From Mytilisepta virgata (Eukaryota > Mollusca > Bivalvia > Mytilida > Mytilidae): a stretch of DNA of 64,000 nt. This document shows, piece after piece, positions 16,201 to 18,773 of this stretch. Within the stretch, counting starts at the first letter, position 1. The number at the start of each line of letters is the position of its first letter. A program made the position numbers and the translations under genes. The stretch covers positions 91,116,513-91,180,512 of the forward strand of contig CM051521.1 in the NCBI GenBank assembly GCA_028015205.1, read 5' to 3'. The notes under the pieces are model-generated. The model was given only the letters and a program-made list of their open reading frames with translations, was not told where the DNA came from and did not search any database.

Positions 16201-18773
16201 TTTTCTTAAACTTTTGTTCCATATGATACATGTTATATACTTATTTGTTTTCTTTATTCTAATTAGATATAATGAACAGAAAAGCTCGACTGGCATGGGA
16301 GTTATATCTGAAGATGGAAACATCAGGGGAATCATTTAGTTTGTTACAACTTATAGCTAATGATTGTTATAAGGTAGGTTATATTATCTTCTCTGTTTCA
16401 TTGCTTCAGTTTATTTAATGGTTGACTAATTTTTTCCATCTGTTCATAAAACCTCAATAACATGCATATGCTGCACACAAAAACAAACAGTGTAGCAGAT
16501 TATTTTAAAGTGTGCACTATGTACATTGAGATTATTTCAGATGGATTAAAAAATAAAATTACATGCAGTTCTTATAATTGCCCAATATGAGGTCACAGTT
16601 AGAAATAATTTTTCTATTAATTGTTTTGTTTTAGATGGGACAGTTTTACTATGCAGCAAAAGCTTTTGATGTATTGGAGAGATTAGACCCCAACCCAGAA
16701 TACTGGGAAGGAAAGAGGGGTGCATGTGTTGGAGTATTTCAAATGATAATAGCAGGCCATGAACCGAGGTTTGTATTTAAAACATCAGTTCTTGGAAGTT
16801 TTATTGAATGTCATACCTGTATATTGGGATGGCAACTTAGGGTGCTTGTATTTGAGTAGATGATTTTCTGACTGTCCAGTCTGTATAGGGACATGTTGAT
16901 TTTGTTACAGGATTCTCTAGCAGGACTAGGTCTGTGAACTTTGCTAAATATAATGGAAAGATAGCACTGCATTTAATTGTATTATCACTTATCGATCAAA
17001 AAAATGTCTTACACAGTACTTGTGAAATTGCACATAATCAAAATTCAGACTAAATAAGAAACACATAACATTTGGGGTATGCATCAATGAGATAATATGC
17101 CATTGGATAATTTGTGGTAATAGATTAATTTCTAAGGATCAACATAGCACTAAAAAGACCATCAGCCTCCCTATTTTAAAAAAAAAATAATTGTAAAAAA
17201 TTTTAAAAATCCACATAGAAAACATTTAAATGAATAAATAGTCCAATTCTGGCTTGGGACAGACATATGCCAAATTTAGTGGGAAGGATGTTATAGTTCA
17301 AAAATATTTATCTGAATATCTGAGTGTATTTGTTAACTTGTATATACATGTATAACAAAGCTCAGCACCTCTAACTTAAACTGTTTATGAATACAGCATT
17401 TTTCTGATTAAACTTACCACATATATACAACAGGATGTTTTGGAATTCAAAAGGTCACGGTTATTTAATCTTGTGTACATCAGAAAAAATAAGATTGTAA
17501 TTTTTACTATATGACATTTGACAACAAGATATATTTTTTTCTTTGTATGCAGAGACAAGTTACGTGAAGCCATTCAGCTGTTGCGAAACACAAATAACCC
17601 ACAAGCTGAATATGCAATAAGAACAATGAAAAAATGGGCAAAGGATAATTCTGTACCCATATGATGATGGATTACATATTGACTTTATGCATTATTTTCA
17701 CTGAATTTAACTGTTGGATATTACTTATTTTAAAATATAATTAAATTATTGTAATAAATTACATTCATTTGCATATAAATATTATTAATAATCTCTAAAC
17801 TGAATGTGTACATGTTTTGTATCAGAGAATCTACATACATGTACATGTATGATAGCGCCAGTCCAGTCCTGAATGTAATCCTTGGAGTTATTAACATCCT
17901 ATTGTTTTAATAATATATCAAGTTTATAATGAAATAGGTTCTATGTTATTTTAAATAGTTCCGTATTCTGCTTGGTTAAATTACTGTCTAAGCTTTATAC
18001 CAGATTATAAGTTACATTGGTCCATTGTAATGGACATAAATGTTTTCCATTACTAAACAATTTTTGCATTTTTGAATGTGTAAAACAATTGTAGGGCAAA
18101 TAGTTTTATCTTTGCAGTGCTTCAGCATTAGCATGCTTATAGTAATTTTTCTTTTATATACCATTAAAAAATTCTTAAAATATATAATATTTAAGATTGT
18201 CCATGGTTTCCAATTCATAATAAGTTTTTTCATTTCATATTATACTTTTCATATGGAGGATTGAAGCTCAGTCATTAAAAACATTGAAGTAGTTTTTGAA
18301 AAATTTTGAAAAAATAGTAATACATACATGTATCTTAGAACTAAAGCTAATGGTATGTGTTTGTTTTGTCCTATTGAAAATTAAGCTTTTTGTAGGAACC
18401 AAACCATAGCCATATTCAGAGGTGTTGTGTATTTATTATCACAATAAAATTACATTTAAGACATTTTCAAGTAATGGGATTAGGTTTAATATATTCCCCA
18501 AATATTTGATATTCTCCACATTATCAAAGTCTTGGTTATCGATTATGAAAAGTAGAGAATGGTGACTATGTAGTTTATATTGCATGATAGAATAGTCCAA
18601 ATTAACATAGCATGCTGCCTGAACTGTAGTATATTAACATCTATTTATTAATTTTTAGGGATACTTTACGTGATGTGATCAACATGTTGAGAAACACAAG
18701 TAATCCACAAGTAGAATACATTGTACGGACTATGAAGAAATGGGCCAAAGACAACTTAGTCCCTCTACCATGA
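3669..18773 (+). CDS. IFT56: IFT56 (TTC26) intraflagellar transport protein, 3' part, two alternative last exons
   Basis: Multi-exon gene. Coding exons: 3669-3864, 5422-5491, 7017-7118, 9382-9456, 9807-9909, 10302-10411, 13304-13367, 14112-14200, 14962-15045, 15290-15359, 16267-16373, 16635-16768, then either 17553-17664 or 18659-18773. All introns are GT-AG and every junction keeps the frame, giving 437 or 438 residues. The protein follows IFT56/TTC26 collinearly, with landmarks such as SLASIHYLRSHYQEAIDIY, ALNLKACNHFRLYNG, DLEPTTPQEYILKGVVNAAL and LDPNPEYWEGKRGACVG. IFT56 (DYF-13 in worms) is a TPR solenoid subunit of the IFT-B complex in cilia, needed to carry a subset of motility proteins; it docks through IFT46. 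Family members are about 550 residues, so roughly the first 130-140 residues, including the start codon, lie upstream; I found no exon for them in 1-3668. Convergent with the CCDC154-like gene. Identity is near certain; isoform use is inferred. Confidence 0.95.
4143..4926. repeat. Element with 13-bp perfect inverted ends
   Basis: TAGGTTCTCAGGC at 4143-4155 is exactly inverted at 4914-4926. The interior is AT-rich and non-coding and includes a 41-bp direct duplication (GTTTCCTAAAC starting at 4594 and 4635). It lies in an IFT56 intron. Confidence 0.55.
5035..5303 (+). mobile_element. tRNA-derived SINE, near full length
   Basis: The head resembles a tRNA with an A box (TGGCCGAGTGG, 5047-5057) and a B box (GTTCGAATC, near 5114-5122); then a body with CTCCGGCTTCCTCCACCAAT and an AAAC-rich tail near 5285-5303. 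The A box with GTGGCCGAGTGG suggests a Leu/Ser-type tRNA origin. Shorter copies lie at 10438-10500, 43928-44066 and 52753-52873. Not a working tRNA gene. Confidence 0.85.
5422..5491 (+). CDS. IFT56: IFT56 coding exon
   Basis: Acceptor TTTTTCCAG before 5422, donor GTAAGT after 5491. Completes the split Arg and reads DFLALNVYVALCYYKLDYYD, a TPR helix pair typical of this protein. A SINE lies about 120 bp upstream in the intron. Confidence 0.93.
5872..6869 (+). mobile_element. AGCTCACC-ended non-autonomous element, copy 1
   Basis: Starts AGCTCACCTGGCTCAAAGCC and ends GGTGAGCCTCTAG followed by T. Near the left end is CATCCATCCGTCCGTC. The core holds diverged units sharing AAGATGGC and GGACCTTATGGGAAATACAT motifs, plus a 101-bp direct duplication at about 6121-6321. 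Open frames here follow the repeat period and are not genes. Confidence 0.7.
7017..7118 (+). CDS. IFT56: IFT56 coding exon
   Basis: Acceptor ATATTCAG, donor GTAGAG (weak at +4/+5). 34 whole codons, starting EVLAVYLQQYPDSAIALNLK and ending at NGKAAE. The phase fits both neighbouring exons. Confidence 0.93.
7189..7750 (+). repeat. Tandem-unit element (about 155-160 bp units) with a G tract
   Basis: Units start ACTCCT at 7294, 7454, 7609 and 7744 (spacing 160, 155, 135). Each has 'TTGATGAAACTT-ATATGAAGGTTGG' and 'CTTGCAAAGGGAG'. The left flank has 22 G at 7218-7239 and TCTGTCTGTCTGTCC. Pearl-like architecture within an IFT56 intron. Confidence 0.65.
7751..8939. other. IFT56 intron, nothing recognised
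   Basis: Part of the 7119-9381 intron. AT-rich, no conserved exon and no clear repeat structure seen, although the first 100 bp are GC-richer and may be the end of a repeat. Confidence 0.4.
8940..9085. repeat. Foldback element, family shared with 56587-56722
   Basis: Left arm ATATATGTACATTGTCGGAA and onward pairs with the right arm ending AAAATGTACATATAAT. The same arms occur at 56587-56722. Palindromic MITE-like structure. Confidence 0.7.
9382..9456 (+). CDS. IFT56: IFT56 coding exon
   Basis: Acceptor TATTTTAG, donor GTGAGT. 25 codons: AELKSLQEMASPSF then VFARDLVKHNL. The preceding intron (7119-9381) is filled mostly by a tandem-unit element and a foldback MITE. Confidence 0.92.
9807..9909 (+). 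CDS. IFT56: IFT56 coding exon
   Basis: Acceptor TTTAAACAG, donor GTAAGT. Reads VVFRGGEGSLQVLPPLIDVI and continues PEARLNLVIYYLKQ; leaves one base (G) for a split Asp codon. Confidence 0.93.
10302..10411 (+). CDS. IFT56: IFT56 coding exon
   Basis: Acceptor TTTTTTAG; donor GTTAGT after 10411. Completes Asp, then DVPEAYNLIKDLEPTTPQEY and ILKGVVNAALGQESGS. A 3' SINE fragment in reverse orientation begins only about 27 bp past the donor. Confidence 0.93.
10438..10500 (-). mobile_element. SINE 3' fragment
   Basis: Reverse-orientation tail and 3' body of the SINE at 5035-5303 (TTTGTTTAGTTGGGGT, then GCCGTTTTCAGCACATTTGG), truncated at GCGGCAGCCAG. Confidence 0.75.
11909..12578 (+). repeat. Four tandem copies of a 167-bp unit
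   Basis: Units beginning GTATTAGTTTGTGATTAG at 11909, 12077, 12244 and 12411 (first spacing 168 because of one extra T). The copies differ at only a few positions, so the array is recent or homogenised. Each unit has GGGGATCCACTAGTGGTAGG and TTGCCATGGAGATTATTTGG. Within an IFT56 intron. Confidence 0.95.
12834..12860 (+). repeat. 27-bp G homopolymer
   Basis: Uninterrupted G run next to GGCGGATCCAGAACTTTTTG. Similar tracts lie at 2160-2187 (28 G), 7218-7239 (22 G), 11743-11752 (10 G) and 24265-24290 (16 G, T, 9 G). Length may be imprecise in the assembly. Confidence 0.85.
13304..13367 (+). CDS. IFT56: IFT56 coding exon
   Basis: Acceptor TTTATTTTAG, donor GTATGT. Reads REHLKIAQQYFQLVGGSASE then Cys and one base of a split Asp codon. 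The intron before it holds the 167-bp tandem array. Confidence 0.93.
14112..14200 (+). CDS. IFT56: IFT56 coding exon
   Basis: Acceptor TTGATAG, donor GTAAGT. Completes Asp and reads TIPGRQCMSSCFFLLKQFED, ending VLIYLNSIK. One of the best conserved stretches of the family. Confidence 0.94.
14962..15045 (+). CDS. IFT56: IFT56 coding exon
   Basis: Acceptor TTTCAG, donor GTAAGT. 28 codons: SYFYNDDNFNFNYAQAKAAV then GNFKEAEE. Confidence 0.94.
15290..15359 (+). CDS. IFT56: IFT56 coding exon
   Basis: Acceptor TTTTTTTAG, donor GTAAGT. Reads VFLLIQSEKTKNDYTYLSWL then ARC and one base of a split Tyr codon. Confidence 0.94.
15545..15985 (+). repeat. Dispersed repeat, copy in IFT56 intron
   Basis: About 440 bp that aligns by eye with 20085-20556: shared blocks AACATGAAAATAAAG, GGGACTTTCAAAATGGTT, AGTTACTGA-GTTTGTTC, and TCTATTTTTATC-CA. 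Same orientation. No coding capacity. Confidence 0.7.
16267..16373 (+). CDS. IFT56: IFT56 coding exon
   Basis: Acceptor TCTAATTAG, donor GTAGGT. Completes Tyr and reads IMNRKARLAWELYLKMETSG then ESFSLLQLIANDCYK. Confidence 0.94.
16635..16768 (+). CDS. IFT56: IFT56 coding exon (penultimate, shared by both isoforms)
   Basis: Acceptor GTTTTAG, donor GTTTGT. Reads MGQFYYAAKAFDVLERLDPN and continues PEYWEGKRGACVGVFQMIIA to GHEP plus AG of a split Arg. Either terminal exon can complete the Arg codon (AG|A or AG|G). Confidence 0.94.
17553..17664 (+). CDS. IFT56: IFT56 alternative last exon, copy A
   Basis: Acceptor TTGTATGCAG before 17553. Completes Arg (AGA), then 36 residues starting DKLREAIQLLRNTNNPQAEY and ending KKWAKDNSVPI, stop TGA at 17662-17664. 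An AATAAA lies at 17753-17758 and another at 18443-18448. No premature stop or splice damage is visible. Compared by eye with copy B, 25 of 36 aligned residues are identical. Confidence 0.9.
17753..17758 (+). promoter_or_regulatory. Candidate poly(A) signal for IFT56 copy A
   Basis: AATAAA 89 bp after the copy A stop codon. A second AATAAA at 18443-18448 also precedes the copy B exon. In AT-rich DNA the hexamer is common, so this rests on position only. Confidence 0.4.
18659..18773 (+). CDS. IFT56: IFT56 alternative last exon, copy B
   Basis: Acceptor AATTTTTAG before 18659. Completes Arg (AGG), then 37 residues starting DTLRDVINMLRNTSNPQVEY and ending KKWAKDNLVPLP, stop TGA at 18771-18773. 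The TLR and QVEY spellings are closer to the vertebrate protein as I remember it than copy A. AATAAA at 19057-19062 is a plausible poly(A) signal. Confidence 0.9.

Follow-up and report, generated by a model that had tools for sequence, protein, structure and literature searches.

We looked at a 64,000-nucleotide stretch of the genome of the mytilid bivalve Mytilisepta virgata (GenBank assembly GCA_028015205.1, the 130-Mb contig CM051521.1, positions 91,116,513 to 91,180,512 of the forward strand; hereafter the window), which carries most of the coding exons of the gene for IFT56 (TTC26/DYF-13), a subunit of intraflagellar transport (IFT) trains. The gene has two neighbouring last exons. In all likelihood, these are a pair of alternative last exons that arose by an old tandem duplication of the terminal exon, and the choice between them is mutually exclusive. 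IFT56 lies on the plus strand, extending from about 5.4 kb before the first base of the window to roughly 19 kb within it, and contains 15 coding exons common to both forms plus the two alternative ones, called here exon A (proximal) and exon B (distal) (Table 1). All introns between its coding exons are GT-AG, with consistent phases. The split codon AG left by exon 15 is completed by A as well as by B, giving proteins of 553 and 554 amino acids. Both acceptors are plausible, with 15 pyrimidines in the 20 bases of the acceptor of exon A (...TTTCTTTGTATGCAG/AGACAAG, at 17553) and 14 in that of exon B (...TTATTAATTTTTAG/GGATACT, at 18659; the slash marks the junction). A common donor, separate acceptors, the same phase and an own stop in each exon are thus all present, as in alternative last exons. 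The original prediction had claimed a common donor after 16768, one phase and separate stops, and the gene model agrees, with both tails in phase 2. The mutual exclusion that it also claimed follows from the exon anatomy, since both exons end in a stop of their own and no good donor was noticed downstream of A: a scan of 17553-18658 for a few donor hexamers gave only 18353 and 18359, far from A. No third copy of the tail was found within the 64-kb window. In a search of the 1.03-Gb genome, 16 candidates were found and all 16 were scored; 14 matches fell at the IFT56 locus, both tails included, and no second IFT56 locus was found, the two matches elsewhere having E values of only 0.7 and 1.8. 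The start codon (window coordinate -5410) stands directly behind an acceptor-like CAG (TTTATTTCAG), which suggests that a noncoding first exon may sit further upstream.

Table 1. Features of the IFT56 gene and tandem arrays in the window (window coordinates; the slash marks the exon end)
Feature	Position	Strand	Remarks
IFT56 coding exons 1-3	upstream of the window, in locus L002	+	gene model
IFT56 exons 4-8	3669-3864, 5422-5491, 7017-7118, 9382-9456, 9807-9909	+	gene model
IFT56 exons 9-14	10302-10411, 13304-13367, 14112-14200, 14962-15045, 15290-15359, 16267-16373	+	gene model
IFT56 exon 15, last shared exon	16635..16768	+	ends ...HEP-AG/ (phase 2), donor GAG/gtttgt; homology to Chlamydomonas IFT56 8bd7_E
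Alternative last exon A, proximal, coding sequence with stop	17553..17664	+	tail RDKLREAIQLLRNTNNPQAEYAIRTMKKWAKDNSVPI, E-type, 36 residues after PR
Alternative last exon B, distal, coding sequence with stop	18659..18773	+	tail RDTLRDVINMLRNTSNPQVEYIVRTMKKWAKDNLVPLP, D-type, 37 residues after PR
AATAAA after exon A, candidate polyadenylation signal	17753..17758	+	not above chance
AATAAA after exon B, candidate polyadenylation signal	19057..19062	+	284 nt past stop B; not above chance
Tandem arrays	11907-12583, 27885-29216, 55014-56285		units of 167, 443 and 166 bases; 98, 87 and 93% matches

The protein could be followed to its very end. Exons 14-16 were alignable with Chlamydomonas IFT56 (8bd7_E) up to the last residues, with E values of 4e-47 when B was the last exon and 1.1e-45 when A was. 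The spliced window protein is 91% identical to IFT56 of Mytilus trossulus (93% for the body alone), and TPR families were found in the relatives P0001 and P0007. By this collinear homology and the TPR solenoid, the gene is identified as IFT56/TTC26/DYF-13. AlphaFold models of P0001 (A tail, Mytilus trossulus) and P0007 (B tail), each built on an alignment of 37 sequences, were of modest quality overall, with a mean predicted local distance difference test score (pLDDT) of 73.9 and 75.5 and a predicted template modelling score of 0.41 and 0.44, respectively. Local confidence at the C-terminal end was good in both, with block means of pLDDT of 81-93. The overall superhelix was poorly modelled: the top Foldseek match of the P0001 model was indeed IFT56 8bd7_E, but with a template modelling score of 0.31 and a root mean square deviation of 20. 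Since both tails model as one helical hairpin (540-549 and 555-569 in P0001; 525-533 and 539-554 in P0007), each alternative exon is predicted to encode one structural unit, a helix-turn-helix cap at the C-terminal end of the TPR solenoid. Both tails keep a conserved core, RNT.NPQ.EY..RTMKKWAKDN, in which Q-E-Y and KKW-K are common. Substitutions in the first helix are K/T, E/D, A/V, Q/N and L/M; the turn has N/S, the second helix has three (A/V, A/I and I/V), and the extreme C-terminus differs as well. The helix differences had been placed on surface positions, which is right only in part and too strong as a general statement, because several are hydrophobic (A/V, L/M, A/I) and lie inside the predicted helices.

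The two exons share 25 of 36 residues, as first counted from the sequence and now reproduced, or 26 of 37 when the shared split arginine is included. At the level of codons, merely 11 of 37 are identical, and 15 of the 26 codons for the same residue differ. There are 34 nucleotide differences, of which 21 are at third positions. By the NG86 method, 20 of the 34 are synonymous; the proportion of differing synonymous sites (pS) is 0.86, which is saturated and gives no finite synonymous rate (dS), while the nonsynonymous rate (dN) is 0.18. In a neutral simulation, 34 changes were placed on exon A in 20,000 draws: 15.8 identical residues were kept on average, and none of the draws kept at least 26 without a stop codon. 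A blastn comparison of 17301-17900 with 18401-19000 aligned 17560-17682 with 18666-18788, that is, the exon and the 15-18 bases that follow its stop; apart from this alignment, it gave one 17-base match (E 0.04) and nothing else, as expected of an old duplication. Exons A and B are homologous neighbours under constraint, as in tandem duplicated exon substitution. Because synonymous sites are saturated while dN remains low, the comparison argues for an old duplication with both copies held by selection at the protein level, and the view of an old duplication with both copies still open stands.

Next to the window, tails were compared in other organisms. For this, we used the best 120 of 2120 full-length homologues plus 38 more, a total of 158 rows with many near copies among them; the added rows came from a query with exon A (14 matches from 15 candidates) and one with a Tubulanus tail (111 from 112). 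The protein database was clustered at 90% identity, by which isoforms differing in the last exon merge, so that absent pairs are uninformative. Among the 10 pairs of isoforms that were compared, eight are from the same species and have different tails, one is a cross-species pair and one a control. The eight come from five species: the snail Biomphalaria glabrata (X1/X2), the ribbon worm Lineus longissimus (X6/X2 and X3/X2), and the amphioxus species Branchiostoma belcheri (X5/X4 and X3/X2), Branchiostoma floridae (X1/X2) and Branchiostoma lanceolatum (X4/X3 and X2/X1). In all eight, at least the 313 residues that precede the split are identical between the members, with identity from residue 1 on in six of the eight, and the split falls after ...EPR or ...EQRE, which is the boundary seen in the window (one residue later in Biomphalaria, where both tails start with E). 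The control pair, Scyliorhinus X2/X1, has identical tails. In the ninth pair, from two other bivalves among the matches listed, Mytilus trossulus X2 (P0001) has tail A and Mytilus edulis (P0096) has tail B. A-type tails are also annotated in Mizuhopecten and Batillaria, among others, and an A tail stands in a full-length open reading frame (P0082) on a 3612-base contig. This contig is probably complementary DNA (cDNA), because a gene with introns of the kind that IFT56 has in the window would not fit on it; the label 'lgn' presumably denotes assembled sequencing reads. The bodies of P0028 (Batillaria, A tail) and P0006 (an lgn contig of 1777 bases, B tail) are 96.5% identical and their tails differ; the two probably represent a further pair of endings, from related snails.

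Tail length is linked to which residue occupies the LRE/LRD position: of the 158 rows, 34 are E with 36 residues, 94 are D with 37, 12 are E with 37, eight are D with 36 and 10 are others. Exon A of the window belongs to the E/36 class and exon B to the D/37 class. The latter is the prevailing class among the corals and is also found outside animals, for example in the Tribonema row (P0156), and for this reason it looks ancestral. All 20 named vertebrate rows among the matches listed have a 36-residue tail, E-type in the 18 jawed vertebrates and D-type in the two lampreys; this accords with the single vertebrate ending of the original prediction, although the 90% clustering could hide a second one. 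The A tail of pulmonates (P0086, Biomphalaria X2, and P0080, Physella X2; last 36 residues) is strongly diverged, with a stem branch of 2.2 changes per column, and yet the two are identical at 35 of 38 residues, counting two from the shared exon. Such a change followed by conservation hints at a lineage-specific function.

Raw identity between tails was set aside as a test of the origin of the pair: out of 35 residues, window A and B share 25, window A and Lineus X2 share 25 and the Lineus pair shares 21, values that separate no hypothesis. Therefore, we used trees. The first had 63 rows and 39 columns, made up of the two window tails and 61 drawn from the 158; Strigamia (P0125), which has an odd end, was left out. 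The A tails of molluscs, nemerteans, annelids, bryozoans and amphioxus, together with two E-type rows that had not been labelled A, came out as one group whose support (88/76) is not firm, and the B tails and vertebrate tails were outside it. A second set of 37 rows was made by removing 26 rows, including the A tails of Biomphalaria, Physella, Dimorphilus and lgn_P0088, so that the longest branches were out. With this set and C20, a separate origin of the pair within molluscs was rejected (p 0.0124), as was one within nemerteans (p 0.0245). The p value was 0.416 for an amphioxus pair and 0.359 for lophotrochozoan A tails alone; constraining the A tails to group with those of amphioxus improved on the free tree by 0.8 log units. 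With LG+G4, p was 0.0211 for molluscs, 1.4e-7 for nemerteans and 0.11 for amphioxus, and with C20 after the last two columns were dropped, 0.0045 for molluscs and 0.511 for amphioxus. Joining the E-type tails of jawed vertebrates to the A group was neither shown nor rejected (p 0.266 with 63 rows and 0.396 with 37 rows). The trees indicate that the duplication likely predates the mollusc-nemertean split, and a bilaterian age is possible.

Several points weigh against one old duplication with both copies in use. With 63 rows, a mollusc-only clade costs 17.4 log units and is not rejected (p 0.073), neither are the mytilid pair (p 0.226) and the Lineus pair (p 0.267), and the tree in which the amphioxus pair is constrained is 3.9 log units better than the free one (p 0.60). 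With 37 rows, the window pair together with Mytilus A gave a p value of 0.071 under LG+G4, the nemertean result lost its significance when the last two columns were dropped (p 0.236), and the A group (83/85) includes a D-type row, lgn_P0113. The E-type tails of jawed vertebrates are outside the A group in both trees. The alignments have at most 39 columns, and the 37 rows and all groups tested were picked after the first tree was known. The class signature is imperfect, since nine amphioxus rows are E with 37 residues and Lineus X6/X3 are D with 36. The NCBI isoforms are computed models, and the evidence from M. virgata is genomic sequence. Exon A is less conserved than exon B between the window and Mytilus (29 of 37 residues identical for A, against 38 of 38 with Mytilus edulis P0096 for B). 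Finally, the AATAAA motifs reported behind each exon are present but have no evidential value: base composition predicts 1.8 in 17665-18658, where two are seen, and 2.8 in 18774-20200, where one is seen, and they were dropped as evidence for two polyadenylation sites.

Among other explanations, the one that survives best is that the last exon was duplicated separately in molluscs, nemerteans and amphioxus, so that the pair would be recurrent rather than ancestral. We give it a substantial chance, though we do not prefer it. It draws on the amphioxus pair, which was not rejected as a clade in any analysis, on the mollusc-only origin in the 63-row tree, and on tropomyosin, whose 3' exons in human, fly and worm apparently have no common ancestor, according to the portion of PMC9741552 consulted. 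On the other side, a mollusc-only origin was rejected in all three analyses of the 37-row set, the A tails of molluscs, nemerteans, annelids and a bryozoan are grouped, and there is the linked E/36 signature. For amphioxus, whose tails fit slightly better with the A tails than in the free 37-row tree, the evidence does not decide. In the opposite direction, a single duplication before the protostome-deuterostome split can be proposed tentatively, at somewhat lower odds. Both exons would then have been kept in molluscs, nemerteans and amphioxus, with only the E-type left in jawed vertebrates and only the D-type in echinoderms and corals in the rows listed, and the pair would act as a two-way C-terminal switch on IFT trains that sets motility or sensory cargo for each cilium.

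For the pair of alternative last exons itself, we propose that one pre-mRNA is processed in two ways. The donor at 16768 would be joined to the proximal exon A, downstream of which the transcript would be cleaved and polyadenylated; alternatively, it would bypass A, as a skipped terminal exon, and be joined to the distal exon B. Competition between acceptors and polyadenylation sites probably picks the exon, and both endings are presumably expressed in M. virgata. The choice would replace the whole C-terminal helix-turn-helix cap and leave the other 517 residues constant. The two caps may modulate how IFT56 binds its IFT-B neighbours or motility cargo, with function not destroyed; trains specific to a type of cilium, as the original prediction suggested, would be one conceivable outcome. 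It is unlikely that choosing exon A is mainly a dosage device acting through the 3' untranslated region and mRNA stability, with a nearly neutral protein difference: separate 3' untranslated regions do follow from the exon anatomy, and the tails share their core and differ mostly by conservative changes, but the residues and lengths that the two tail classes retain from phylum to phylum are partly different, and the pulmonate A tails, first strongly changed and then stable, point to a function of the protein. That exon A (or B) is a relic, open yet absent from stable mRNA, with one working ending, is very improbable: the greater divergence of A from Mytilus and the genomic nature of the window evidence would suit it, but both acceptors are plausible, saturated synonymous sites go with a low dN that no neutral draw matched, and A tails are annotated in Mytilus trossulus, Mizuhopecten and Batillaria and present in the probable cDNA P0082.

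Alternative C-termini made from duplicated last exons are of a known kind, and the IFT56 instance is apparently unreported; no alternative IFT56/TTC26 C-termini were found in a literature search at the level of titles and abstract openings. In human, 236 tandem duplicated exon substitution events have been described, 77 of them C-terminal (PMC9741552, consulted in part). As in IFT56, neighbouring homologous exons swap C-termini there, and the events are old and their substitutions conservative. The IFT56 case differs in being invertebrate and in an intraflagellar transport subunit, and TTC26/IFT56 is absent from the main text of that paper. Tropomyosin (TPM1/lev-11/Tm1) likewise has duplicated terminal coding exons and alternative C-termini in several phyla, in the same source; in contrast to the apparently separate tropomyosin 3' exons, limited evidence makes the mollusc and nemertean pairs of IFT56 look shared. 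In Drosophila, pip and PGRP-LC also have duplicated terminal exons or 3' regions with a mutually exclusive choice; pip, unlike IFT56, has eight clusters. For PGRP-LC, competing RNA structures are reported (excerpts of PMC9013439). Chlamydomonas IFT56/DYF13 in IFT-B1 (8bd7_E) is the same protein as that of the window gene, but its solved chain has a single C-terminus and no second ending is mentioned in the excerpts of PMC10191852 and PMC3936282. These excerpts describe IFT56 as a peripheral subunit of IFT-B1 with a link to the transport of inner dynein arms. A swapped cap could tune the contacts of IFT56 at that periphery.

Rfam and tRNA scans of the 64-kb window reported nothing. At 5030-5300, in intron 4 of IFT56, there is what we take by eye to be a tRNA-derived element resembling a short interspersed element, whose head resembles the A and B boxes of a tRNA; ARAGORN calls no tRNA gene at this position. 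Two open frames on the minus strand, 25378-25815 and 40847-41491, are rich in RS/RD dipeptides and NRNQTPTQ-like repeats, the second with a 24-base repeat at 41030-41158; they have no Pfam match and are perhaps exons of a minus-strand gene converging on IFT56. Another open frame on the minus strand (54120-54458) is coiled-coil-like and weakly matches DUF2408 in Pfam, below the threshold (19 bits against a cut-off of 25). A plus-strand open frame (51308-51700) has a C-x2-C...H...C pattern and, on visual inspection, resembles the C-terminal end of a reverse transcriptase of a long interspersed element; it has no Pfam match.

A conserved choice between two C-terminal caps would open a genetic route to the question of how different cilia are served by a single train machinery. 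If vertebrates kept one ending, this choice would be invisible in them. Should the tentative reading of a single duplication before the protostome-deuterostome split be true, a layer of ciliary specialisation would have been lost from the vertebrate models used for the study of IFT.

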